From: Chromatiales bacterium USCg_Taylor | GTDB lineage: Bacteria > Pseudomonadota > Gammaproteobacteria > JACCXJ01 | Assembly: GCA_002007425.1 (NCBI GenBank) | Contig: MUGK01000001.1 | Location: forward strand, 1 to 43,901 | Direction of reading: 5' to 3' | Length of the DNA stretch: 43,901 bases | In this document: positions 1,261 through 30,813 of the stretch, piece after piece | Layout: every line of letters starts with the position of its first letter | How positions within the stretch are numbered: the first letter of the stretch is position 1 | Program-made: the position numbers and the translations under genes | The notes under the pieces: generated by a model | The model's input: the letters and a program-made list of their open reading frames with translations, nothing else | Database searches by the model: none | What the model was told of the DNA's origin: nothing

Positions 1261-1300
1261 GTAGGTGGGTTGGGCGTGCTGTTTGCGCCTAACCCACCGA
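1261..1300. repeat. REP-like imperfect palindrome upstream of the GGDEF gene
   Basis: GGTGGGTTGGGCG (1264-1276) pairs with CGCCTAACCCACC (1286-1298) across a 9-base loop. That is a 13-bp stem with one G-T wobble. No T run follows, so it is a poor intrinsic terminator. Palindromes of the GGGTT...AACCC type are scattered in many proteobacterial genomes and are mobilised by RAYT transposases, remnants of which occur at 12.1-12.8 and 14.1-14.2 kb here. It lies about 20 bases before the start codon of the next gene, so it could also affect that gene's translation. Confidence 0.45.
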
Positions 1301-1321
1301 CGTGAGGCGGGGGCACCAAGG

Positions 1322-3262
1322 ATGTTTCGAGTCTCCTTACGCTATGGGATCCCTCTCCTCATCGTCGTATTCACGGCGGACCTCGCGGCGTACACGGTGC
1401 ACAAGGAATGGGGTGCCGCGGAAGCCGTCGTCCGGGGAGAAGCGGTTTCGCAGATCATAAGCCGCATGACACTGCTCCAAGAGCAGTTAAGTTATTCATA
1501 CGCCACGGGTGACCGCGAGCGCATTGCACAGGAGATGTCACTCCTCGGCAGTGCTCCGGAGCCGCAGATTGCGATATTGGCAAACGATAACGCCATCGTG
1601 CTGGGCGCAACGAAGGGCGAATGGGTCGGTCGATCGCTGGCGGAGGCGGCACGGGCGCAATGGCCACGCTGGCCGGGCGAGCCGTTGCAGGCCATCATCG
1701 ATCGGGTACGAGCGCAACTTTCCGGTGAGCTGTTCCTGGCTGCCGGTGGCCGCTATGTATTGGGAGTATACCCGGTTAAGTTGGATGCCCGCGCCGATGC
1801 GCTTCCACCGAAGCGGGTAGGTGTTTTGGTTGTGCAAAGAGACCTCTTGCACGAGCTCGCCCATGCGCGGCGCACGGTCGAGAAACATAGGCTAGAGATG
1901 GCCGGTGTGCTCGTTGGCCTGGCCGTGGTGCTCGGGGTCCTGATTCATCTCTTGGTGACGCGGCGACTGAACGCCTTGTCGATCGCCACGCAGAAATTTT
2001 CCGGAGGCAACCTGGAGGCGCGCGCCGGTTTGCGCGGGAGGGATGAGGTCGCAGTCTTGGGCCGGGCATTCAACCGCATGGCGGAGCAGGTTGCGGACAG
2101 CCAGAAGCAGCTTGAGCGCCGCGTGCAGGAACGGACGGCGGAGCTGGACCGGACCGTCTCTGATCTGCAAAAGGAGATTGCGGAACGCCGGCGTGCCGAG
2201 GCTGCCCTGTTTGAAGAAAAGGGACGCATCGAAGTCACACTGGCGTCCATCGGGGATGCCGTTATCACCACCGATGTCGCCGGTCAGGTCGACTACCTGA
2301 ATCGGAGCGCCAAGCAACTGACAGGCTGGTCTAAGGACGAAGCTGCGGGTCGAAACCTCCGCCAGGTGTTCCACATCATTGATGAAAGCTCGCGTGATCC
2401 GATCGAGGACCCCGTGCAGCGCTGCTTCCAGGATGATGGCAAGATCGTCGGCCTTGCGAACACTACCCTATTGATCTGCCGCGACGGGCGGGAGCTGTCA
2501 TTGGACTATTCGGCGTCCCCGATCCACGACCACGCGGGCACGACGATTGGAGCGGTGTTGATCTTTCGCGACGTGACCGAGGCACGCCGAGCGGAGCGCC
2601 AGTTGAACTATCACGCCTCGCACGATGCGCTGACGGGGCTCGTCAATCGTCGGGAGTTCGAGCGCCGGCTGGAGCGCATCCTCGCGACGGCTGCGCAGGG
2701 GGAGGAGCATGGCGTAATCTACCTTGACCTTGATCAATTCAAGGTCGTCAACGACACGTGTGGGCATGTCGCGGGGGACGAGCTATTGCGCCAGGTCGGC
2801 GCCGTGCTCGCGACCCAGCTGCGCAAGCGCGATACGCTCGCGCGCCTTGGCGGCGATGAGTTCGGGGTTCTGCTTGAACACTGCGAACAGGGGCAGGCCC
2901 TGCGGATCGCCCACCTGATGCGCGAGGCCTTGCAGGATTTCCGCTTCGTGTGGCAAGAGCGAGGCTTCGCAGTTGGCGCAAGCTTCGGACTTGTACCTAT
3001 CGGGCCACTCACCCATACCCTCGCCAGCGTCTTCAGGGCCGCGGACGTTGCATGCTATGCGGCCAAAGAGCAAGGCCGCAACCGCGTGCACCTCTATTAC
3101 CCCGACGATCATGATCTCGCGCAGCATGGGTGCCGCGCATTCAGGAGGCATTGGCCAACAGCCGATTCTCGCTCTACTACCAGCCGATCATTGCGCTTGG
3201 CTGGAGTGGTCGGCCCCACGGCGAGGTGCTCTTGCGTCTTCTTAACCGCGACGGCGATTTGA
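1322..3262 (+). pseudogene. Sensor diguanylate cyclase part (TM-HAMP-PAS-GGDEF) of a frameshifted GGDEF-EAL protein
   Basis: The start is taken at the ATG at 1322 (MFRVSLRYGI), because the upstream extension reads through the palindrome. Order of parts: transmembrane helix (about residues 5-25), periplasmic sensor region, second helix (about 195-215), HAMP (TRRLNALSIA...), coiled coil, PAS domain (SIGDAVITTD...GQVDYLN), then GGDEF from HDALTGL at about residue 434. The catalytic motif is canonical (ARLGGDEFG), and an RxxD inhibitory site (RKRD) sits five residues before it. The domain would make c-di-GMP at the membrane in response to an outside signal. At about 3128 the frame is lost, so the reading continues as nonsense to 3262 while the EAL domain resumes in another frame. 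The cyclase half could still be made as a separate protein. Confidence 0.85.
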
Positions 3263-3867
3263 TACCGCCCTCGGCGTTTATCCCGGCAGCGGAACGCTAC
3301 AATCAGATGCAGGCCATCGACCGCTGGGTCATTCGCACCGTTTTTTCGGGATTGCGTGACCCGCATTGGGTCCCCCTGCCAGGCCGTGTTGCCATCAACC
3401 TCTCGGGCCAGTCCCTGGGCGACCGGCAGTTTCTGGATTACGTCGAGCAGCAGGTGGAGCACTGGTCGGTCCCCCTGGATCGGATCTGCTTCGAGATTAC
3501 CGAGACGGCCGCCATCAGCAATCTCAGTAACGCTAGGCGCTTTTTGTCGGCCCTCAAGCCGCGCGGGTGCCGCTTTGCTCTCGATGATTTCGGCAGCGGC
3601 CTGTCGTCGTTCGCTTATTTGAAGACACTGCCCGTCGACTACTTGAAGATCGACGGCGGTTTCGTCAAAGACATGGTCGCAGATCCTATCGACCATGCCA
3701 TGGTTGAAGCGATCCACCGAATCGGCCATGTGATGGGTATTGAAACGATCGCGGAATCTGTCGAGACCGCACCCATTTTGGCGCAGCTTAAGGTGATTGG
3801 CGTGGACTACGCCCAAGGTTACGCGGTAGGGAAGCCGAGACCGCTGGGAGAGGTAGCTCACAGCTAG
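3130..3867 (+). pseudogene. EAL phosphodiesterase part of the same split GGDEF-EAL gene
   Basis: The reading begins WVPRIQEALANSRFSLYYQP, which in intact relatives follows the GGDEF domain through a short linker. Conserved EAL-domain segments are all present: EVLLRL (the EVL variant of EAL), INLSGQSL, FEITETAA, ALDDFGSGLSSF, LKIDGGFV, IAESVET and AQGYAVGKP, so metal- and substrate-binding positions look preserved. The domain hydrolyses c-di-GMP. The only start is a GTG at 3130 without a ribosome binding site, so separate translation would be weak. The frame change relative to the cyclase half equals loss of one base modulo three; a 13-base loss between two TGG triplets would explain both the frame and the missing linker residues (inference). 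The gene ends convergently with kdpE, about 80 bp away. Confidence 0.8.
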
Positions 3868-7373: not shown

Positions 7374-7946
7374 TTATCGGGTGCCATCGAGCTTGACGTT
7401 GAGCGCGAGCACATTGACGCGCGGTTCCCCGAAGATGCCCAGCCACGGACGCACGGCGTGCTGCTCGACGAGCCCCTTGACCTTCTCGGCCGGCAGGTTT
7501 CTGGCCTGCGCCACGCGCGTAATCTGATAGTGAGCCGCGGCCAGCGAGATGTCCGGATCGAGGCCGCTTCCCGATGCGGTCACCAGATCGATCGGCACCG
7601 GCTTGTCGCTGCTCGGATCGGCGGCCTTGAGCGCCGCGACGCGTGCCTTGACCGCGTCGGTGAGCGCCGGGTTGAGGGGGCCAAGGTTCGAGCCGCTGGA
7701 GACCGCGGCGTTGTTGGGATGAGGACCGGTGGCCGAGGGGCGGCCCCAGAAATTCTCGGGCGAGGTGAACTGCTGGCCGATCAGCGCCGAGCCGGCCGGC
7801 TTTCCCTTCACCATCACGATGGAACCGTTGGCTTCGTGCGGAAACAACAACTGGCCGACACTGGTCACCGCGAGCGGATAAACGACCCCCGTCAACACAG
7901 TGAGTGTTGCGAACAATGTCAAAGCGGGACGTAGCAAAGCTTTCAC
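7374..7946 (-). CDS. kdpC: KdpC, accessory subunit of the Kdp potassium-transporting ATPase
   Basis: The product has 190 residues, the usual KdpC length. One N-terminal transmembrane helix (LTLFATLTVLTGVVYPLAV) is followed by a periplasmic domain with the family signatures SALIGQQF, FWGRPSATG and SGLDPDISLAAAHYQ. The GTG start has a good ribosome binding site (AAGGAGGAA) and lies 12 bases after kdpB. KdpC is the single-span subunit that stabilises the KdpFABC complex and raises its apparent ATP affinity. The gene shows no lesion, in contrast to kdpF, kdpB and kdpD. Confidence 0.93.
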   Translation of the reverse strand: MKALLRPALTLFATLTVLTGVVYPLAVTSVGQLLFPHEANGSIVMVKGKPAGSALIGQQFTSPENFWGRPSATGPHPNNAAVSSGSNLGPLNPALTDAVKARVAALKAADPSSDKPVPIDLVTASGSGLDPDISLAAAHYQITRVAQARNLPAEKVKGLVEQHAVRPWLGIFGEPRVNVLALNVKLDGTR

Positions 7947-7958
7947 TGCATTTCCTCC

Positions 7959-9419
7959 TTACACCAGACCCAGCGCCGCGAGGCCCAGGTCGATGATCTT
8001 GATGCCGACAAAGGGGACGAGAATTCCGCCCAGACCATAGATCGCGAGATTGCGTCGCAGCACCACGGCCGCTCCCATAGGTCTATACTCGACGCCCTTG
8101 ATCGCCAGCGGGATCAACACCACGATGATCAACGCGTTGAAGATCACGGCTGAGAGAATGGCCGAGGCTGGACTCGCCAGTCCCATGACGTTGAGCGCGT
8201 TCAACTGCGGATAGGTCACCACGAACATGGCCGGGATGATTGCGAAGTACTTGGCCACGTCGTTGGCGATGCTGAAGGTGGTCAGCGCGCCGCGCGTCAT
8301 CAGCATCTGCTTGCCGACCTCCACCACTTCGAGCAGCTTGGTCGGATTCGAATCGAGGTCGACCATGTTCCCGGCCTCCTTGGCCGCCTGCGTGCCGCTG
8401 TGCATGGCGACCGCGACGTCGGCCTGCGCCAGCGCCGGTGCGTCGTTGGTGCCGTCGCCGGTCATGGCCACGAGGCGTCCCTCGCCCTGGTACTGGCGAA
8501 TCAACGCGAGCTTCGCCTCCGGTGTCGCTTCCGCCAGGAAATCGTCCACGCCGGCCTCGGCGGCGATTGCGGCCGCGGTCAAACGATTGTCGCCGGTGAT
8601 CATCACGGTTTTGATGCCCATGCGGCGCAGCTCGGCGAACCGTTCCTTGATCCCGCCCTTGACGATATCCTTAAGCTCGATCACCCCGAGCACACGCACG
8701 CCGTCGGCGACCACGAGTGGGGTGCTGCCGCGCCGCGACACGTCGTCCACGAGCTGAGACACCTCATTGGGGAAACTACCGCTGTTGGTTTCGACGTGGC
8801 GGCGAATGGCATCCGCGGCGCCCTTGCGGATCTGGCGACCCTCAAGATTGACACCGCTCATGCGTGTCTGTGCCGAGAACGGCACGAACGTCGCGCCGAG
8901 CGCGCGGATGTCGCGCTCGCGCAAATTGAAGCGCTGCTTGGCCAGCACCACGATGCTTCGCCCTTCGGGGGTCTCATCGGCGAGCGATGCGAGTTGCGCG
9001 GTGTCGGCGATCTGCTGTTCGGTCACGCCGCGCGCCGGCAGGAACGCGCTCGCCTGACGATTGCCGAGCGTGATGGTGCCGGTCTTGTCGAGCAGCAGCA
9101 CGTCCACGTCGCCGGCCGCTTCCACCGCGCGCCCGGAGGTGGCAATTACGTTCGCCCCCAGCATGCGGCTCATACCGGCGATGCCGATAGCCGAGAGTAG
9201 CGCGCCGATGGTGGTCGGGATCAGGCACACCAGCAGCGCCACCAGCGCGGTGAGCGTCACCGGTTGGCCGGCCTTGGCCGCCTCCACGCTGAACAGCGAG
9301 TAGGGCAGCAACGTGACGGTCGCAAGCAGAAAAATCAAAGTGAGCGCCACCAGCAGGATGGTGAGCGCGATCTCGTTCGGCGTCTTCTGGCGCTTCGCAC
9401 CCTCGACCAGCGCAATCAT
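7959..9419 (-). pseudogene. kdpB: kdpB, C-terminal fragment with catalytic P and N domains
   Basis: This is the larger part of the P-type ATPase subunit. It resumes at [20 protein letters not shown], exactly where intact KdpB continues after NPGEAFIDR. Present are the phosphorylation motif DKTGTITLG, the nucleotide-binding region, the hinge motif [18 protein letters not shown] and the C-terminal membrane helices. Separate translation from the ATG at 9419 would give a protein lacking the actuator domain and first membrane helices, which could not pump. The frameshift is a single-base loss near 9440 (coding AACCCGGCGAGG where AACCCGGGCGAGG restores the frame). If that base is a sequencing error the gene is fully normal. 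Confidence 0.88.
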
Positions 9420-10024
9420 GCGGTCGATGAAGGCCTCGCCGGGTTGACGGTGATGCGCACCACGATCCAGTCGGACAGCACCGTGGTGCCCCCGGTGACG
9501 GCCGAGAAGTCACCGCCCGCTTCACGAATGACGGGTGCGGATTCGCCGGTGATCGCGGCTTCATTAACCGAGGCAGCGCCTTCGATGACCTCGCCGTCGG
9601 CCGGGATCATGTCGCCGGCCTCGACCAGCACCACGTGGCCGCGCCCCAGCTCCGTGCCCGGCAGCAGATCCACCGTGGCGCCATGGCGCGGCTCGCGCAG
9701 CTTCTTGGCCACCACGAACTTCTTGGCACGGCGCAGCGCCGCAGCCTGGGCTTGGCTCCTGCCCTCGGCCAGCGCCTCGGCGAAATTGGCGAACAGCACC
9801 GTGAACCACAGCCACAGGGTCGTGAGGCCAATGAACCACGCCGGTGCTTCGCCCTGACCACCGAGCGCTTGCACCCACAGCCCGGTGGTGAAGATACTAC
9901 CCACGTACACGACGAACATCACCGGGTTCTTGAACTGAACCCGCGGGTCCAGCTTGCGGAAGGCGCCGACCAGGGCCGGCGTGATCAGGGTCGGATCGAA
10001 CATGGAAAGTTTCTTACGAACCAT
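9416..10024 (-). pseudogene. kdpB: kdpB, N-terminal fragment with actuator domain
   Basis: The best start is the ATG at 10024 ([13 protein letters not shown]), with GAGGTG about six bases upstream. The track's GTG at 10033 overlaps that ribosome binding site. The piece carries the first membrane helices ([37 protein letters not shown]) and the actuator domain with AADGEV-type loop [12 protein letters not shown] and the TGES motif (ITGESAPV), the serine of which is the regulatory phosphorylation site in E. coli KdpB. It ends in [12 protein letters not shown] followed by out-of-frame residues. It overlaps the C-terminal fragment by four bases only because of the frameshift. Confidence 0.87.
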
Positions 10025-10034
10025 TATAGTCACC

Positions 10035-11828
10035 TCAGTTTCCGGCCCACAGAATTAGATGCTCGACCGCCGGCCCAAGGGCCAGGACCGGGATATAGGT
10101 CAGCGCGCCCACCAGCAGTACCGTGCCGACCAAGAGTCCCACGAACAGCGGCCCGTGCGTGGGCATGGTGCCGGGTCCGTGCGCCAGGCGTTTCTTCGCT
10201 GCGAGCGAACCGGCGATCGCGAGTACCGGGACGATCACGGCGAAGCGCCCGAACCACATGGCCGCTCCCAGCCAGCCGTTGTAGAACGGCGTGTTGGCGC
10301 CCAAGCCCGCGAAGGCGCTGCCGTTGTTGTTGGCGGCGGACGAAAACGCGTACAGGACTTCCGAGAAGCCGTGCGCACCCGGATTGAAGATGGTCGCCTT
10401 GCCGGCGCTCGCCATCACCGCGATCGCCGTGCCGAGCAGTACCAGCGCCGGCGTCATCAGGATACCGATCGAGACCATCTTCATGTCGAACGCCTCGATC
10501 TTCTTGCCGAGGTATTCCGGCGTGCGGCCGATCATGAGCCCGGCGACGAACACCGCCATGATGGCGTAGAGCAACATGCCGTACAGGCCCGAGCCGACGC
10601 CGCCGAACACCACCTCGCCCAGTTGTATCATCCACATCGGCACCAGTCCGCCGAGCGGCGTGTAGGAGTCGTGCATTGAGTTGACCGCCCCGCACGAGGC
10701 GGCGGTGGTGATGGTGGCGAACAGCCCCGAGGCGCTGATGCCGAAGCGCGTTTCCTTGCCTTCCATGTTGCCGCCGGATTGCAGTGCGCTGACCGTGTGA
10801 TCGACGCCGAGCTTGGCGAGCACCGGGTTGCCCTGCTGCTCGAACGTCATGGCCGCGACCGCGGCGCCGATGAAGATAACCGTCATCGCTGCCAGGACTG
10901 CCCAGCCCTGGCGCGTGTCCCCGGCCGCCCGGCCGAATGCATAGACCAATCCCGCCGGGATCACGAAGATCGCCAGCATTTGCAGGAAGTTGGTCAGGAC
11001 GGTTGGGTTCTCGTACGGGTGCGCCGAGTTGGCATTGAGGAAACCTCCACCGTTGGTGCCGAGCATCTTGATCGCTTCCTGCGAGGCAATCGGTCCCATC
11101 GGCAGGGTCTGCTTGGTCGTCGTCAGGGTTTCATTGACCGGATTGCCCGCGGCATCCTTCACCGGCTGCCCGGCGGCGTCAGGCTTCGGCGCCCCGTACG
11201 TCGTCGGTTCGAGCGTGGTGACCTCCTGGTAGGCGGAGAAGTTCTGGATCACCCCCTGGCTCACCAATACCAGCGCAAAGACAAACGACAGCGGTAACAG
11301 CAGGTAGGCCGTGATGCGATAGAGATCGGCCCAGAGGCTGCCGATGGTTTGCATAGAGTGACGCGCGAAGCCGCGAATCAGGGCGAACGCGACGGCGATG
11401 CCGGTTGCGGCCGAGAGAAAATTCTGCACCGCAAGCGCGAGCATCTGGGTGAGATAGCTCATGGTCGCCTCGCCGCCGTAGCCCTGCCAATTGGTGTTGG
11501 TCACGAAGCTGATGGCGGTGTTGAAGCTCGAATACGGCGTGACGTTCGGCATCCGCTGCGGATTGAGCGGTAGCCACAACTGCAGGCGCTGCAGCGTGTA
11601 AACCACGAGCACGCCGACCACACTGAACAAGAGAACGGCCAGCGCGTACTGACGCCAGTTCATTTCGTCTTGGATCCCGCACACGCGGAACACACCGTTC
11701 TCGAGCCGTGCGAGCGGCTGCCAGCGCGTCGTTTCCATCAATTTGGTCAGGTACAGGCCAAGCGGCTTGACCGTCGCGAGCAGCACGACGAGAAAAGCCG
11801 CCAACAGCAACCAGGATTGAGTGGTCAT
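10035..11828 (-). CDS. kdpA: KdpA, potassium-binding channel-like subunit of the Kdp ATPase
   Basis: The 597-residue protein is slightly longer than E. coli KdpA. All four selectivity-filter regions of the superfamily of K+ transporters are visible: [34 protein letters not shown] and NNNGSAFAG. About ten hydrophobic helices are spread over the chain. A lineage-typical insert between the first and second filter regions is rich in [15 protein letters not shown]-like sequence. The start ATG directly abuts the restored kdpF stop codon (TAA then ATG) and kdpB follows after 10 bases. In the complex KdpA takes K+ from the periplasm and feeds it to KdpB. The gene is undamaged. Confidence 0.95.
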
Positions 11829-24040: not shown

Positions 24041-25627
24041 TTACGGTTGGGGTTGCTCGCCGTCCTTAGTGATCTTGATGAAGCTCCCGTCGAACTTCTG
24101 CAAGAAGAGCTGATCGAATGGCTCGTTGAAGGTACCGATATAGTCCCTTATCACCCCAATCGCCACTTGTTCGCCGAGCGTGATGGACGCTGAATGGTCG
24201 GAGCGCCAATGCACGCCCGCGACATTGCGACCGATACCGATGTTCATCGCCAATTTGTTGAGCTCACCGCCGACGGTGAGATCGTCCTTGTCGAGCCCCT
24301 GATACGGAACGAGGCTTGCGCCATCGCTTGACGGCACAACGGGCGCTAAGCGTTTACGTGTGCCTGGGTCGAGCAGATCGGTAATCTTCTGCGAGACGTC
24401 GAACCAGGCCTTGAGCACCGTCACACAGGCACCCGCGACTGTGGCATGGCCGGCACCGTAGGCAGGATGCACGGGTGAACCCTCCGGGAAGCCCATCGGC
24501 AGTAGATACGTCCCGTACTGCGCGAACACGGTGTCGAGGGCACTCGAATCGGTCGCGACCGCTGCATGGATCCCATAATCCTTCACACCGGTTTTTTGCA
24601 GGTGTAGGCGCGCGGCGAATACCTCAGGCCGCAGCCGTCGGTGGACCGACCATTTCTGGTACCACACAGCGCGCAACGCATGCCGTGCGACCTCGGGAAG
24701 CAAGGCCTGAAGATGGGGGTTACCGAGAGTGCCGAAGGGATCCTCATTAAGGATGGGACCACCGGCACGGTACGGGTTACCGGCATCGACCCGTGCCCCG
24801 CCGTTCAGTAATATCAACATAGCGTTGAAATAGGCTTGGTAGAGGAGGTCGACGTGCACCCATTGGCCAAGGTCGCGGCCGTTGCGGATGTAGCGAAGGT
24901 CGGGATCGACCACGTCGGGCTCCTGCGAGAACCCATGCTGTACTGAGAGCCAGTCAGCCAGATCCACCATGTAGTCCTTGCCCGAGACCACCGTTCGCAT
25001 GCGCTGGTCGATCTCTTGGGGCCCAAGGTAGCATCTCTGTAGGAGGAACTGAGACATGTAAGGGCCCTTCTCTTCTCCGAGGGTGGTCCCACGGAAGAGA
25101 AGTTGCGGAGTGACGCGCCCCGACGCATCCTTCGGGCCCTTGAAGTCGGCACCGAACCGGTCTAAATCCGCGACGGCCTCTTTGATGATGGGGTGATCCT
25201 CGTTGTAATCGGCAAAGTGAATGTCGCGCGCGAGTGCCATCCAGTAGTTTTCGGCGATCTCGGCGGCGATTTCCTTGCTGACGAATGTGGGTGCCGCGGG
25301 TATAGCGAGATGCTTCGGATCGGGTCCGATGAGCTCGATGCCTAGTCCGTTTTGCGGATTGACCAGACCCCGGCGAGGCCCAAAGCCATTGGCGCGGCTG
25401 CCCAACGGTATCGCGTTGAAGTCCGCTTGATTTCCGGTAGTGATGGCATTAACGAGGGCGTTAAACGCCGCCGGGACGACTTCCCCTAGCGACGTATGCG
25501 GTAGGCCTTTGGAATAGCTCGCACGTAGATCTGCGTAAAGTGACTCATCGCCATTCGGCGTCTGGGTCGCTAAGGGCTGCGAATCCCAGAAATTGGCGTT
25601 GTCGAGACGGCGGGTCGGTATTAGCAT
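24041..25627 (-). CDS. Vanadium-dependent haloperoxidase (bromoperoxidase type, PAP2 superfamily)
   Basis: The product has 528 residues; ATG at 25627 with an excellent ribosome binding site (AAGGAGGAA). The vanadate pocket is recognisable: Lys325 and Arg331/Arg333 in KWSVHRRLRPE, His394 in AYGAGHATVAG, Arg467, His473 and Asp477 in GRNVAGVHWRSD. The eight-residue spacing from Lys to the second Arg fits the bromoperoxidase rather than the chloroperoxidase type. The serine of the usual PSGH motif is alanine here (GAGH). Such enzymes oxidise halides with hydrogen peroxide. No signal peptide is visible, so it should be cytosolic unless exported another way. It is the first gene inside the repeat-bounded region and is separated from the cytochrome/porin pair by about 240 bp in which I see no gene. 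Confidence 0.8.
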   Translation of the reverse strand: MLIPTRRLDNANFWDSQPLATQTPNGDESLYADLRASYSKGLPHTSLGEVVPAAFNALVNAITTGNQADFNAIPLGSRANGFGPRRGLVNPQNGLGIELIGPDPKHLAIPAAPTFVSKEIAAEIAENYWMALARDIHFADYNEDHPIIKEAVADLDRFGADFKGPKDASGRVTPQLLFRGTTLGEEKGPYMSQFLLQRCYLGPQEIDQRMRTVVSGKDYMVDLADWLSVQHGFSQEPDVVDPDLRYIRNGRDLGQWVHVDLLYQAYFNAMLILLNGGARVDAGNPYRAGGPILNEDPFGTLGNPHLQALLPEVARHALRAVWYQKWSVHRRLRPEVFAARLHLQKTGVKDYGIHAAVATDSSALDTVFAQYGTYLLPMGFPEGSPVHPAYGAGHATVAGACVTVLKAWFDVSQKITDLLDPGTRKRLAPVVPSSDGASLVPYQGLDKDDLTVGGELNKLAMNIGIGRNVAGVHWRSDHSASITLGEQVAIGVIRDYIGTFNEPFDQLFLQKFDGSFIKITKDGEQPQP

Positions 25628-25871: not shown

Positions 25872-27422
25872 TCAGAATTTAATCATCCACTCCATACGCA
25901 ATCCGTAAGAAAGCCCGTCGCTTTCCCGGCCGGCCACGAAAGAATCCAAGCGCAGCACATGGTGCTCACCGATCGCGCGCTGATAGCGGGCCCCAAAACC
26001 TAGGACACCTTCATCTCTCCCGCTTTTGGTGCTCGTGCGGGCGCCGAGCTCCAAGATAAGTTGGCTATCGATGCCATCGAGAAACATCTGGTAGCCGATC
26101 GCCGTACCAATGGTATCGTCGATCGGCTGCCCGAGAGGCACTCCGTAACGGCCCATTCCCACTGGGCCATACAAGATGCCGAGGTTTGCCAGGGGGCCAC
26201 CTTGATCTGGGCTCCGCGCAGCCGACGTGAACTGGTCAATGTTCCAGAAGGTATTGAAATAGGCGATATTGTCGGAACCAGGCAACGTGCTAGACAGTTG
26301 AGAGAGGAGGAGTACTCCGCGCCCCACTGCTGGCGTTTCGTCGCGTTCCGGAATAGAGGCATTAACCCTGAACGTTGTGTTCAGCCAGCTGAAGCGTTGG
26401 GTCGATGCAGCGCCCACATACCAGGCATTTCCATCGCGATCGTCGTCAACATAAATGAAATCCAGCGAAACGGTGTTATCCCATGCGGTGTCTGCTTCCG
26501 AGAACAAACCAAACAGGTGCGCAGAGTGGTCATTGTTTTTGTTGGCTAGGTCGTTGTTGCCTCGATTGATATGATTCCAGCCATATACCCCAGTCATGCG
26601 GAGGTTCGACACACCGTCAAACACAAGGGAGTTGCGGGTGATTCCGACCATATCAATGATGTCGTTCAGTAGGATCCCATCCTGGAGCAGTACTGGCTGG
26701 CGACCAATGGAAAAGCCGACGTCAAAGGTGCCGGAGTCGGTCGGATCCAACCCCGGGAAGATCTCACCGATATCACCTTCAAAAAAGAGTTGGGTCAGCC
26801 TGGCGTTTAGGTCTTGCTGCCATCCCTCATCTTCGTTGGGTTCGAAATTGTAGCCTGTATAGTCCCCGGTTTCGCGATCGACTGGCCGCATGGAGAAGAG
26901 CAGCCGCTCAGTTCCCGAGAGGTTTACGTTACCGTGCAAATCAAGCCGGTTGCTCCATTCAGTGGTCCTTTCATCGCCGCTCTCGAAGCTCTGGAAGGCA
27001 CTGCGGAATGTTCCGAATAACAAAAACCAAGGTTGGAGCATTTGACCGGTCGGTGTTTTAATACCGGGCTGGATTGGTCCGTTTCCGAGAAAAGGACTAC
27101 CGAACTCAAGAATCGGTCGCAAACGTTCCACCGGATCTACGGGATATTGCACAACCTCATCAGGCAGACGCCATGGGTCGTCATCCGTCACCGCTTGGTC
27201 GCGATAGAAATCGACGGCATTACGACCTTCGGGCACGGTTGTTTCTGTTGCGTGATTCTGGGCCTTCGGTACGTTTGACTGATTGCTTTGCGGCTGATGC
27301 CCTTGTGCTAAAGCACGACTACTCACAAAGATCGCGAACATTGTTAGCAATCCCAAGTGCCGTCTCACCCTGGTTTTATTCGATAACAAGATTTCGTTCC
27401 CAAAGTACGCGGTAAAGATCAA
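25872..27422 (-). CDS. Outer-membrane beta-barrel protein paired with the multiheme cytochrome
   Basis: The reading frame is 516 residues from 27422. A signal peptide fits a later start better: TTG at 27389 or GTG at 27368 (VRRHLGLLTMFAIFVSSRALA before QG). The GTG lies just after the cytochrome stop, implying coupling. The mature part has a low-complexity N-terminal region and then alternating strands (RLLFSMRPVDRETGDYTGY, FDVGFSIGRQPVLLQDGILL, SHLFG-type turns). It ends in GLRMEWMIKF, a terminal aromatic barrel strand. It resembles alginate-export/DUF1302-like porins, without a firm family. A barrel gene overlapping a periplasmic multiheme cytochrome gene recalls porin-cytochrome conduits for electron transfer across the outer membrane (inference). 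The base composition is visibly less GC-rich than in the core genes. Confidence 0.7.
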   Translation of the reverse strand: MIFTAYFGNEILLSNKTRVRRHLGLLTMFAIFVSSRALAQGHQPQSNQSNVPKAQNHATETTVPEGRNAVDFYRDQAVTDDDPWRLPDEVVQYPVDPVERLRPILEFGSPFLGNGPIQPGIKTPTGQMLQPWFLLFGTFRSAFQSFESGDERTTEWSNRLDLHGNVNLSGTERLLFSMRPVDRETGDYTGYNFEPNEDEGWQQDLNARLTQLFFEGDIGEIFPGLDPTDSGTFDVGFSIGRQPVLLQDGILLNDIIDMVGITRNSLVFDGVSNLRMTGVYGWNHINRGNNDLANKNNDHSAHLFGLFSEADTAWDNTVSLDFIYVDDDRDGNAWYVGAASTQRFSWLNTTFRVNASIPERDETPAVGRGVLLLSQLSSTLPGSDNIAYFNTFWNIDQFTSAARSPDQGGPLANLGILYGPVGMGRYGVPLGQPIDDTIGTAIGYQMFLDGIDSQLILELGARTSTKSGRDEGVLGFGARYQRAIGEHHVLRLDSFVAGRESDGLSYGLRMEWMIKF

Positions 27423-29484
27423 CTAATTTGTCGCCGATGGCACGTGCACTGAGTCCGTACTCAAAACCCACTCCCGAAATGGCATGGATCAAATGCGGAG
27501 GGAGCTGGCCCGCCACGAGCTTGATGTTTAAACGATAAGGCGTGCGACCGGTGAGGAGTTTGGGATCGACGTGGTAACTTGCCCAGCGATGCCCCAGCGC
27601 CTCGATGTTTTTCTTCTGCAGCCGGAGATCGCGAATGCCGCCAAACAGTACCGATGGCGTGTGCGAGGGCCGCATGTAGATCAACGGATTTAAGGAGTAG
27701 TTGGCCGGTATCACCTGCTCGCGCTCTCCTCCATGAACCGTACCGACCAAAATTGGAGACCGCAGATTGAAGAGCTGTTCGTCTCTTGGTATGGCGCCAT
27801 TGTGTACGTACAAGGAGTGCGTGTCGCGAACGTCTCCGTTAGGGTCCAGATCGCCGGAGCGCAAAATTACCGTTCCGTCGGCGTCGGTCACCGTGACCTG
27901 CAAGAAGACGTTGCGCTCGGCAATCAACCCCGAGGGCACGCTGTGGCCGTCGGTCAGGTTCTTAACTTCGACGTCGAACTTAAGGCCTTCTTCTTTTTCA
28001 GTGATTTTTATTTCACCGAGACCGTAGCCATTACGCAATAAGGTAGTGGCACGGGCTCGGTTCTCGGCCAGTAGCGCCAGTTGCTGATCGATAATTTCCC
28101 GGGCCGCAATACGTTCTTCGGGATCTGCCCAAATGCCGGGAAATTTTGCGTCGTCAGGCACGCTTTTTTCGAATGCTTCGGATCCCCACCCGGCTGCGAC
28201 GTCAAAACTCAACCATTCCTCTGGCGTGGCAAACTCCTGCGCCTCTGGGTTGACGGGAAAGATGCCTGGATGGACCACGGAACTATCGGGTCCCGGGAAC
28301 ATATGATTAGTGCGTCGAGCGGGCCGGGTTGGCACACCGCGGACGATCGCTGCGGAAGCGGGCGGGTACTCCGACGGGATACCGGAGGTCGGACCCATGT
28401 GACAGCCTTGACACGTCACTCCCCGTTTAGCCGCCGGTGTTTGCTTGTATTCACTAAACAGATCCTCAAACCGAATGCCGTTAGCTAAGCGTACATCGTG
28501 GCAGCGAGCACAAAACCCCGGTTGGGAAACCTGCTCAAGAAGACGTGCCTCGCGATGGGTTTTGGGGGGGTTGTCTGAATGAGAATCGAGCACACGTTGC
28601 AGCTCATCACCTTTGCGGGGACCGTAAATGGGGATGCGGATATCGCCGGGTTCAAGGGGAAAACGGCCGGTGATTTTGCCATAGGCCTCGGGAACTCGGT
28701 GACAGACGACACAGGTGATCCCCTCTAAAGCCACCTTCGCACGGTTCTTATTGCTGGTGAGAATTGGCTCGCCGGTAAACATGCCCACTTGGGTGTGACA
28801 TCGCTCGCAGAAATCACCCAAGGTCCCCTTAGTCAATTTCACCAAAGTCGCCTGATAGGCCAGGAAGGTAGGACTTATCTGAGCGAAAGCATGTCGCGAA
28901 ACAGACCATTCACGGTAGATTTGCAGGTGGCAGGCGCCGCACTCTTGCGCAGATGGGAATTCGGCCTTTTTAAACAGTTCTTCGTGAGACTTATCCCCCG
29001 ATTCACTATTAGCATTGGCGACCATCGTATGGTCAGCATCCGATGAAATTCTCTTAGGGCCGAGCTCGTAACGGATGAAATTAATCAGATGCCATATTTC
29101 TTCCTTCGCTAGATGATTTTTGAAACTGGGCATAGGGGATCTGCCGGTCCTGATTTTCGTGTAAATCGCGCCGTCAGACTGCCCTAAAACCTCGGAGCTC
29201 GTCAGGTTTGCGACCGTATTGCCAAGAGCAGCGGCTACCGGGCCATCCCCTTTTCCGGTTTTTCCGTGGCACTGTTGACATTCTCGCAGATAGAGATTTT
29301 TACCCATCGCCACAGAGGACGCGTCCGCCGTAATCGGATTTGCGATTCGTGCAAGACGCGGTGAAACTCGCCAGTTATTGGACCGTTCTTGCTCAGCCGT
29401 TGCGGGTTTCTGTATCAGGATTAAACTGATCACAAACACAATGGCAGTGACAATGTAGTACCAGCGTAATGATTGGTTTCTCAT
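27376..29484 (-). CDS. Exported six-heme cytochrome c
   Basis: The product has 702 residues. An N-terminal signal/anchor (YYIVTAIVFVISLILI, then PATAE) is followed by six CxxCH heme sites: CQQCH (69), CGACH (182), CERCH (226), CVVCH (258), CARCH (325) and CQGCH (358). The first lies in a class I cytochrome c domain with a likely methionine ligand (SPMPSF, about 118). The other five form a cytochrome c554-like block. The C-terminal about 230 residues are heme-free beta structure beginning NLTDGHSVPSG, common in multiheme cytochromes. The overlap with the barrel gene suggests a shared electron pathway at the cell envelope. No reductase catalytic motif was recognised, so donor and acceptor are unknown. 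Confidence 0.85.
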   Translation of the reverse strand: MRNQSLRWYYIVTAIVFVISLILIQKPATAEQERSNNWRVSPRLARIANPITADASSVAMGKNLYLRECQQCHGKTGKGDGPVAAALGNTVANLTSSEVLGQSDGAIYTKIRTGRSPMPSFKNHLAKEEIWHLINFIRYELGPKRISSDADHTMVANANSESGDKSHEELFKKAEFPSAQECGACHLQIYREWSVSRHAFAQISPTFLAYQATLVKLTKGTLGDFCERCHTQVGMFTGEPILTSNKNRAKVALEGITCVVCHRVPEAYGKITGRFPLEPGDIRIPIYGPRKGDELQRVLDSHSDNPPKTHREARLLEQVSQPGFCARCHDVRLANGIRFEDLFSEYKQTPAAKRGVTCQGCHMGPTSGIPSEYPPASAAIVRGVPTRPARRTNHMFPGPDSSVVHPGIFPVNPEAQEFATPEEWLSFDVAAGWGSEAFEKSVPDDAKFPGIWADPEERIAAREIIDQQLALLAENRARATTLLRNGYGLGEIKITEKEEGLKFDVEVKNLTDGHSVPSGLIAERNVFLQVTVTDADGTVILRSGDLDPNGDVRDTHSLYVHNGAIPRDEQLFNLRSPILVGTVHGGEREQVIPANYSLNPLIYMRPSHTPSVLFGGIRDLRLQKKNIEALGHRWASYHVDPKLLTGRTPYRLNIKLVAGQLPPHLIHAISGVGFEYGLSARAIGDKLVDLYRVLWERNLVIE

Positions 29485-29619
29485 CTAAAAACCGGTGCTT
29501 TAGTTAACTCAGTGACTCTCGTATTGAATCAGGTGATCTCTTGACCGTTGCCCGACTCGGTGATGACTTTCACGGGGCGGGGCCAATCCGCAGCAATTTT
29601 TTTACGCTGCCTAAGGATA

Positions 29620-29679
29620 CGAAGTGCACTTCGCTTGTTCAGTGACTTTGCGTACAAACATTCTGTGACAGATTCACAG
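29620..29679. promoter_or_regulatory. Two palindromes upstream of the cytochrome gene
   Basis: CGAAGTGCACTTCG (29620-29633) is a perfect 14-bp palindrome. CTGTGA-CAGAT-TCACAG (29663-29679) is a 6-5-6 inverted repeat that resembles a CRP/FNR-type site with a spacer one base short, and GACAGA...TCTGTC overlaps it. They lie 136-195 bases before the cytochrome ATG and could be operators; they could also belong to the edge of the IS3 remnant that starts next to them. Confidence 0.35.
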
Positions 29680-29689
29680 TCTGTCCCGG

Positions 29690-29886
29690 GGGCGCAGTAC
29701 CGGGTGCATCCGACGCAAATCAGCCAGTGGAAGCGCCAACTCGGAGCGGAGGCGAAGGAGACCTTCGGGAGCCGACGCCTCAAGAAGGTGCGGTACCAAG
29801 AGGTGGTGCAGGCGTCGGTATATGAGGAGATCGGGCGGCTGACGATGGAGCTTGAGTGGGTAAAAAAAACTGCGGGCCTCGGCTGA
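29690..29886 (+). mobile_element. IS3-family transposase OrfA remnant
   Basis: The frame reads AQYRVHPTQISQWKRQLGAE, then EEIGRLTMELEWVKKTAGL, the helix-turn-helix and leucine-zipper parts of IS3/IS911-type OrfA. The N-terminal start of OrfA and the whole OrfB integrase are missing, so this is a dead fragment. It marks a past insertion between the cytochrome gene and the truncated haloperoxidase. Confidence 0.75.
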
Positions 29887-30008: not shown

Positions 30009-30440
30009 TCACGACGGCAGAGGCACTGGCGATTTCGTCATCCCACTGCCGAAGATGTCCTCGGCGATGTCACGCCAAGTGGAACACCGCCAACGTTTTG
30101 TGTGTAATCAGGCTTACCGTTGTTACCGATAGCGAAGGCGTCAAACACCCAATGCACGCCCAAATACACGCGGCTGGGGCCGTTCTCCTCGATCATCTGC
30201 CACAGGCCGTTTGGGAAGTTGCGGACGTGTTTTGGCCGCACGGTTCCGTTGTTGTCCTTGTTCACGCCATTGTGTTCATCGGACACAAACGTGAGATCTT
30301 GGAACCGAGCGTCCGGATTTTTATCGCCAACAGCAGTGCCATAGAACAGACGCGTCATTTGAAATGCCGCTGCGCCGAACGTGGCATGCCCGGAGGGGTA
30401 GGCCGGAAACGGCGGCGTAAAATTCTTGGCCTTGCCCGTT
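30009..30440 (-). pseudogene. Second vanadium haloperoxidase/PAP2 gene, truncated and frameshifted
   Basis: The minus strand reads NFTPPFPAYPSGHATFGAAA, then TFVSDEHNGVNKDN, RNFPNGLWQMIEENG, SRVYLGVHWVFDAFA and NVGGVPLGV. These are the C-terminal third of chloroperoxidase-like vanadium enzymes with an intact PSGH and R-x5-H-x3-D set. Everything upstream of NFTPPF is missing; an IS91-type transposase fragment takes its place at 30439. Near the end one base is lost: GGCGTGACATC should carry an extra base to read on as DIAEDIFGSGMTKSPVP with a stop at 30009, directly before the terminator. As written it ends at 30038. It is a different subfamily from the enzyme at 24-25.6 kb. Confidence 0.75.
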
Positions 30441-30591
30441 ATTGTATATGGACGACCTGCAAGACCGGCACGAGCAGCTGGGGATGTGCAGCGAACAGAA
30501 AGCGCAGCGGGATCGGAAACGAGAGCACCCACTGCCGCAGCGGCACCCGAAGGATGACGTGATCGGCAAGGTGGGCGGCGGTTTCTGCCAT
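30439..30591 (-). mobile_element. IS91-family transposase remnant, N-terminal-side part
   Basis: The minus strand from the ATG at 30591 reads MAETAAHLADHVILRVPLRQ, then WVLSFPIPLRFLFAAHPQLL and VPVLQVVH before a stop at 30439. This block follows the zinc-ribbon region in IS91/ISCR-type transposases. It is too short for the ORF track. It joins the haloperoxidase remnant on one side and the duplicated mltD-spacer copy on the other, so it sits exactly at a module junction. Confidence 0.7.
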
Positions 30592-30813
30592 GCACCGAAG
30601 CTCCGCATCAGCCGCTTGCGGCCGAGGCCTCCATTTCGTTTACGGCCGCAAGGTGGCCGCGAGTAGATACAGTATCGCCGCCAAATAAACCACCGCGCTC
30701 AGCCCGAGCTCAACAGAGATCATCATGGCCAGCACCCAGCAGTATTAATAGCACGCTTACGACCAGCGCCTGAATCAGTGTGGCCAGCAACATGAGGTAA
30801 CCGAGGTCCAGGA
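30592..30813. repeat. Repeat copy C: mltD-spacer plus pieces of the 804-residue membrane gene
   Basis: Bases 30592-30736 align to 39644-39788 (tail of mltD, spacer, 3' end of the membrane gene). Bases 30738-30813 align to 40278-40353, so about 490 bases of the parent are deleted inside this copy. Several point differences and a broken frame show that it is a decayed, non-coding duplicate. It separates the haloperoxidase/cytochrome module from the toxin-antitoxin/efflux module. Confidence 0.88.

Follow-up and report, generated by a model that had tools for sequence, protein, structure and literature searches.

A pentaheme-type cytochrome and a dedicated outer-membrane barrel encoded together: a probable redox complex with a six-heme form in methanotrophs

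What does a multiheme cytochrome do when its gene overlaps that of an outer-membrane barrel? This question is raised by Chromatiales bacterium USCg_Taylor (GenBank assembly GCA_002007425.1), where positions 1 to 43,901 of contig MUGK01000001.1, here called the window, encode a six-heme cytochrome c and a beta-barrel protein next to each other on the reverse strand. An initial annotation of the window had proposed that the two might belong to a new redox system of the cell envelope. The best explanation overall, to which we give a probability of about 0.6, is an outer-membrane redox complex of cytochrome and porin, with a soluble substrate that passes via the pore.

The pairing of the two genes is found far beyond the window. 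Scanning genome contigs turned up 345 relatives, and among the best 80, which were examined, the barrel gene lies directly downstream of the cytochrome gene in 78; the remaining two lie at contig ends, so that all 78 testable loci have the pair. At least 14 phylum-level groups are represented among these loci. The genes overlap in half of the separate pairs, and in 65 of the 78 loci they are at most 50 nucleotides apart. In three loci, L074 and L111 of Acidobacteriota and L082 of Saprospiraceae, cytochrome and barrel are fused in one reading frame. The fusion junction runs into the mature N-terminus of the barrel (...SRITDNYIPLQLDGFP...) and the barrel signal peptide is gone, which identifies them as true fusions and not as read-through. 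In the tree L074 and L111 are sisters and L082 is set off from both by unfused relatives, so that two independent fusion events are the simplest reading of the sequences.

Two whole-genome surveys showed the same association. In the class survey of 369 genomes a full-length cytochrome occurs in five, and the barrel occurs in these same five and no others. In the phylum survey of 399 genomes all three cytochromes have an adjoining barrel, and the only additional barrel begins 152 bases from the end of its contig; neither survey detected an orphan barrel away from a contig edge. Cytochrome and barrel have also diverged together, with a Mantel correlation of their distances of r = 0.82 that was reached in none of 2000 permutations. 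More distant relatives of the class with the pentaheme cytochrome (PHC) fold described below (L007, L011, L014, L018, L021 and L022) have no barrel within flanks of about 1.5 kb, and the tie to the barrel is therefore specific to this PHC subfamily. Taken with the fusions, we consider it very likely that cytochrome and barrel form one complex.

The cytochrome itself has exactly six CxxCH motifs (CQQCH, CGACH, CERCH, CVVCH, CARCH and CQGCH). Pfam assigns residues 58-137 to class I/cbb3-type cytochrome c (E 6e-13) and residues 181-262 to cytochrome c554 (E 2e-8), with no domain beyond about residue 370. Motif count and Pfam thus agree with the six-heme protein, composed of a class I domain and a c554-like block, that had been described from the sequence. 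We divide it into a signal peptide (about residues 1-30), a class I heme domain (about 45-140), a pentaheme PHC block (about 175-370) and a heme-free C-terminal domain with a putative immunoglobulin-like (Ig-like) part (about 375-702). The solved structures closest to the class I part are chains deposited as 'cytochrome c552' (7o9u and 9vr0, E about 1e-18). A profile of 40 relatives matches one solved structure in hmmsearch, the pentaheme cytochrome c552 of Thermochromatium tepidum (5ze8, E 9.7e-17), which Foldseek also found with the predicted model of the L082 fusion (E 4.5e-9, TM-score 0.68 of the target, 561 columns). The second aligned stretch of the cytochrome, which carries a conserved H-x-PTG motif, pairs with its counterpart in 5ze8, a match that is weak on its own, and the C-terminal part is beta-rich in the fusion model. 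According to Chen et al. (2019), the T. tepidum protein reportedly consists of a five-heme domain and an Ig-like domain. A PHC family with an immunoglobulin-like domain, which groups ExtKL and Gsu2801 and for which structural homology to the T. tepidum protein was noted, has been described (PMC11976967). The ExtKL model NF040886 was matched by each of the 40 cytochromes scanned, always below its cut-off. By these sequence and model matches, the five-heme block belongs to the already known PHC fold, and its heme-free beta domain probably completes the same layout. The initial annotation could not match the layout of the protein to any known type; the five-heme block and the C-terminus are largely accounted for in this way, and the N-terminal class I heme domain fused to a PHC is the unusual and new part.

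The six-heme forms make up one clade in the tree (support 100/99), composed of the window sequence, a related gammaproteobacterial metagenome-assembled genome, Methylobacter, Methyloglobulus (with two copies) and other Methylococcales. Their nearest relative is a pentaheme sequence of Nitrospinota, which argues that the class I domain was gained within the lineage. On this tree the gain happened a single time, and every named member of the clade in question is a methanotroph; the six-heme form was seen only in methanotrophs and their close kin. The gene content marks the window host as a methanotroph as well, because its genome encodes subunit A of the particulate methane monooxygenase (pMMO; PmoA, E 1e-120 to solved pMMO chains).

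The barrel has no meaningful sequence match in Pfam, NCBIfam or the PDB. None of 65 barrels matches any Pfam family, porin families included, or an NCBIfam porin, and MtrB_PioB (Pfam: PF11854) was found neither in these barrels nor in the whole genome of the window host. As judged from these scans, the barrel is a new family absent from Pfam and NCBIfam, and it is set apart from the Geobacter porin ExtI by the family described for ExtI. AlphaFold2, run with the 65 relatives, predicts a barrel of 18 strands between residues 132 and 515 (predicted local distance difference test score, pLDDT, 82; predicted TM-score, pTM, 0.75), in agreement with the proposed outer-membrane barrel partner. The folds nearest to the model are MOMP, OprD/Occ, AlgE and chitoporin, with identities near 10% and TM-scores near 0.5 by query. 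An 18-strand barrel with the predicted OprD/MOMP/AlgE fold is a substrate-type pore, which we count in favour of the cytochrome-porin complex with a soluble substrate. The likeness to OprD and MOMP porins could also be read as that of a plain substrate porin which stands beside an unrelated cytochrome by chance, but the universal adjacency, the fusions and the co-occurrence in the surveys refute this, and we give it practically no weight. The initial annotation had likened the pair to porin-cytochrome systems and had named a barrel without association to cytochromes elsewhere as the result that would speak against it; the adjacency, the fusions, the co-occurrence and the lack of orphan barrels all point the other way.

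The natural fusion L082 was predicted by AlphaFold2 with a pTM of 0.85 and a poorly ordered linker (pLDDT below 50 at 602-615 and 626-634). Such a value would not be expected if the two parts, about 560 and 440 residues long, were freely placed, so the prediction very probably holds a definite interface between cytochrome and barrel. Barrel termini lie in the periplasm, and the cytochrome would therefore most likely sit at the periplasmic mouth. We propose that the pentaheme cytochrome, located in the periplasm and ending in an Ig-like domain, docks on its dedicated 18-strand porin, and that a small soluble substrate, such as a chelated metal, an oxyanion or a redox shuttle, would enter the pore and meet a heme at the inner mouth. 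The complex probably exchanges electrons with the outside; that its substrate is soluble rather than solid we put at slightly short of even odds.

The soluble partner is preferred because a pore of 18 strands that has no redox centre of its own cannot conduct electrons across the membrane. The alternative is a wire similar to MtrAB, with the heme block partly inside the barrel and electrons passed on to a solid or a partner cell. MtrB has 26 strands, and the barrel of the pair, with 18 strands and the fold of a substrate porin, would be narrower; it also lacks the MtrB/PioB domain, the compact five-heme protein is unlikely to fit in its lumen, and a surface cytochrome is not co-encoded in the window. 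The fusions, the conserved pairing and the confident placement of both parts in the fusion model would suit a wire as well, and a separate porin-cytochrome cluster of MtrAB type has been proposed for the growth of Methylobacter on electrodes (PMC13322032). All in all we regard the wire as unlikely. A second alternative keeps the electrons in the cell, with the barrel feeding a catalytic multiheme reductase in the periplasm. It overlaps our best explanation and differs from it mainly in the site of the chemistry. The substrate-porin fold fits it and so does ExtI, which was proposed as a channel for selenite and tellurite (PMC5877670), but at least six conserved histidines outside the motifs (H167, H198, H310, H394, H405 and H514) are available for five hemes, so that no heme is obviously open for catalysis, and we judge this reading rather unlikely. 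Finally, the barrel could be a scaffold that holds the cytochrome at the outer membrane or exports it there, without a role in transport. Without ExtI, several heme proteins of Geobacter show an altered membrane distribution (PMC5877670), in line with such a scaffold; the conservation of the barrel goes well beyond the needs of an anchor, above all in the LGTG-PG-LPTGAVWQP segment ahead of its first strand, which makes a pure scaffold very unlikely.

Where would the electrons of the cytochrome-porin complex come from? Outside the methanotroph loci, the pair often heads a multi-gene redox cassette that spans both membranes. It contains a c554-type tetra- or octaheme cytochrome (55 loci), a cyclic nucleotide (cNMP)-binding/4Fe-4S protein (47 loci), a membrane protein whose four almost invariant histidines form two HX13H pairs of the kind seen in di-heme cytochromes b (47 loci), a deca- or hexaheme cytochrome (43 loci) and an FAD/NAD/2Fe-2S reductase of NADH type (32 loci). 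The cassette was seen among L027-L114, on either side of the pair (L094:9668-17635 is one example), and its cNMP-binding domain is double. The cassette as a whole seems to be without description in the literature searched. In most bacteria the electrons may come from NADH or the quinone pool via the co-encoded membrane chain and would then flow outward. The methanotroph loci are without the cassette, and there the N-terminal class I domain probably receives electrons straight from the pool of periplasmic cytochrome c. Six methanotroph loci (L036-L041) have, directly after the barrel, a protein with several predicted membrane segments and one CxxCH motif (for example L037:11682-12560). The L037 copy has no Pfam or NCBIfam family match; the proteins of these loci recall, by description only, the inner-membrane monoheme cytochrome of the MtrAB-type cluster of Methylobacter (PMC13322032).

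Several points weigh against the complex as we propose it. The alignment under the fusion model had 17 rows with both proteins, and only three of them are true fusions; the other 14 were made by reading through stop codons that separate genes in the same frame (one reaching only part of the barrel). The interface was taken from the pTM, and the putative position of the cytochrome at the periplasmic mouth from the location of the barrel termini. Furthermore, the window genome has no cassette at the locus of the pair, and a search of this genome for the monoheme membrane protein of the six related loci found nothing.

The features at the locus are given in Table 1. Both reading frames were open as originally annotated, which bears out the reported gene overlap, and the overlap suggests that the two genes are cotranscribed. 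The barrel start as called is a TTG at 27422, and a second TTG lies directly before the barrel signal peptide; the overlap that this second start gives is also found in several relatives, and it is the likelier start. The annotation had further called the DNA foreign-looking. The G+C content is 53-56% across 25.5-31.5 kb and mostly 58-70% on both flanks; the left end of the window and 12-13.5 kb are also lower. The low G+C content, the IS3-like transposase piece and the broken vanadium chloroperoxidase upstream support that description and make a recent acquisition of the pair region likely.

Table 1. Coordinates of the gene pair and adjoining features in the window.
Feature	Position	Strand	Basis or remark
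Six-heme c-type cytochrome, 702 aa	27376-29484	-	Open reading frame (ORF), motifs, Pfam, PDB sequence matches, 5ze8 match, relatives
Beta-barrel of the outer membrane, 516 aa, of a new family, with 18 strands predicted	25872-27422	-	ORF, relatives, AlphaFold2, fold matches, family scans
Overlap of cytochrome and barrel genes	27376-27422	-	47 nt as called; 14 nt with barrel start at 27389
Vanadium bromoperoxidase-type haloperoxidase, intact, without obvious signal peptide	24041-25627	-	Sequence match; neighbour, judged outside the system
Vanadium chloroperoxidase remnant	30041-30595	-	76% identical to the intact L035 copy downstream of the pair
IS3-type transposase OrfA-like ORF, probably a mobile-element remnant adjoining the pair	29548-29886	+	Translation read by eye

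The pair indeed lies beside a vanadium haloperoxidase, as first annotated, and the intact gene is of the red-algal bromoperoxidase type (E 8e-85). It is on the same strand, about 245 bases downstream, so that the pair might serve it in a halide system. Different vanadium chloroperoxidases occur near the pair in two of the other loci, downstream in L035 (L035:4500-6020) and upstream in L040 (L040:4995-6449), and the window has a broken one upstream of the pair. However, the window bromoperoxidase is in none of the 83 other loci searched, the neighbouring chloroperoxidases belong to another haloperoxidase branch and differ in position, and L037 and L041 have wide flanks without a haloperoxidase. 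Haloperoxidases use peroxide and need no electron donor. The suspected link to the pair is not borne out by this survey, and we reject the haloperoxidase as a partner, with hardly any probability left to it. Counted together, vanadium haloperoxidases of the two branches recur near the six-heme pair in three of nine loci, one copy being broken, and none was seen near the pentaheme versions.

Elsewhere in the window there are kdp-like potassium-transport genes (7374-11828), with a KdpB-like ATPase that is split in overlapping frames (7959-9419 and 9416-10033), which suggests a frameshift or an assembly error. A GGDEF/EAL-type signalling protein (1265-3867) is split in two overlapping ORFs (1265-3262 and 3130-3867), possibly by another frameshift.

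The cytochrome fold and the porin-cytochrome pairing as a kind were already known. New are the barrel family, its obligate pairing with a PHC subfamily over 14 phylum-level groups, the natural fusions, the cassette and the six-heme form of the methanotroph lineage; the literature searched, whose coverage leaves out most subscription journals, contained no account of the pair. Known cytochrome-porin systems are mainly from metal-reducing and iron-oxidising bacteria, and most groups that carry the pair, such as Planctomycetota, Acidobacteriota, Nitrospirota and marine Alphaproteobacteria (Nisaea, Thalassobaculum), are not known for extracellular electron transfer. We tentatively propose, as an idea somewhat likelier wrong than right, that the pair represents a new, widespread class of outer-membrane redox system, in which a pentaheme cytochrome caps an 18-strand pore for soluble exchange, with a chain from NADH to the outer membrane in many phyla and a fused class I cytochrome in aerobic methanotrophs. 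In methanotrophs the pair would give electrons a route when oxygen is scarce and would bear on the aerobic methane oxidisers that are found under anoxic conditions. The function of the pair is directly testable, since carriers are available in culture (Thalassobaculum litoreum, Nisaea denitrificans, Sulfidibacter corallicola and Methyloglobulus morosus).

How does the pair compare with known systems? Cyc2 is a single polypeptide with a short N-terminal monoheme domain. It shares with three relatives of the pair that cytochrome and barrel form one polypeptide, but the PHC of the pair is multiheme with more than 500 residues and the genes are separate in nearly all members. Identity with Cyc2 is rejected, as the window genes are separate and the fusions elsewhere are multiheme. 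MtrAB, PioAB and MtoAB likewise combine an outer-membrane barrel with a co-encoded multiheme cytochrome, whereas the pair has six hemes instead of ten, 18 predicted strands and a substrate-porin fold. The window cytochrome scores 23.8 bits against the decaheme MtrA/DmsE model TIGR03508, far below the cut-off of 192. Together with the six CxxCH motifs and the barrel without MtrB/PioB domain, this agrees with the early remark that the layout does not match MtrAB; membership of the barrel in MtrB/PioB is rejected on the lack of PF11854 and the strand number. T. tepidum c552 shares the five-heme domain and probably the Ig-like C-terminal domain at about 15% identity, and the window protein has in addition the N-terminal class I heme domain and a dedicated barrel partner. 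The PHCs of cable bacteria, unlike the pair, have no porin nearby (PMC11976967).

The Geobacter ExtI-ExtKL system (extHIJKL / extHIJKLMNOPQS; PMC6148476, PMC5877670) also has a pentaheme cytochrome and a porin in one cluster, as found in all 78 testable loci of the pair; additional multiheme cytochromes, a cytochrome b and an Fe-S protein are common to both systems. The differences lie in the proteins and the gene content. The window cytochrome reaches about 48 bits against the ExtKL model with its cut-off of 250, so it is homologous but is not placed in that family. ExtI belongs to the phosphate-selective porin O/P family (PMC5877670), which none of the 65 barrels matches, a comparison made by description. 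The accessory genes of the pair differ, with the NADH-type reductase and the cNMP/4Fe-4S protein and no rhodanese found among them, and the gene order of the pair is cytochrome then barrel. The extHIJKL cluster has metal phenotypes (PMC6148476), ExtI mutants have a selenite/tellurite phenotype (PMC5877670), and the ExtI-ExtKL pair has a role in metal respiration and in the reduction of selenite and tellurite (PMC5877670, PMC6148476). These phenotypes are consistent with a distantly related pair that works similarly, and by analogy the best reading is that the pair works like ExtI/ExtKL yet lies outside that family.

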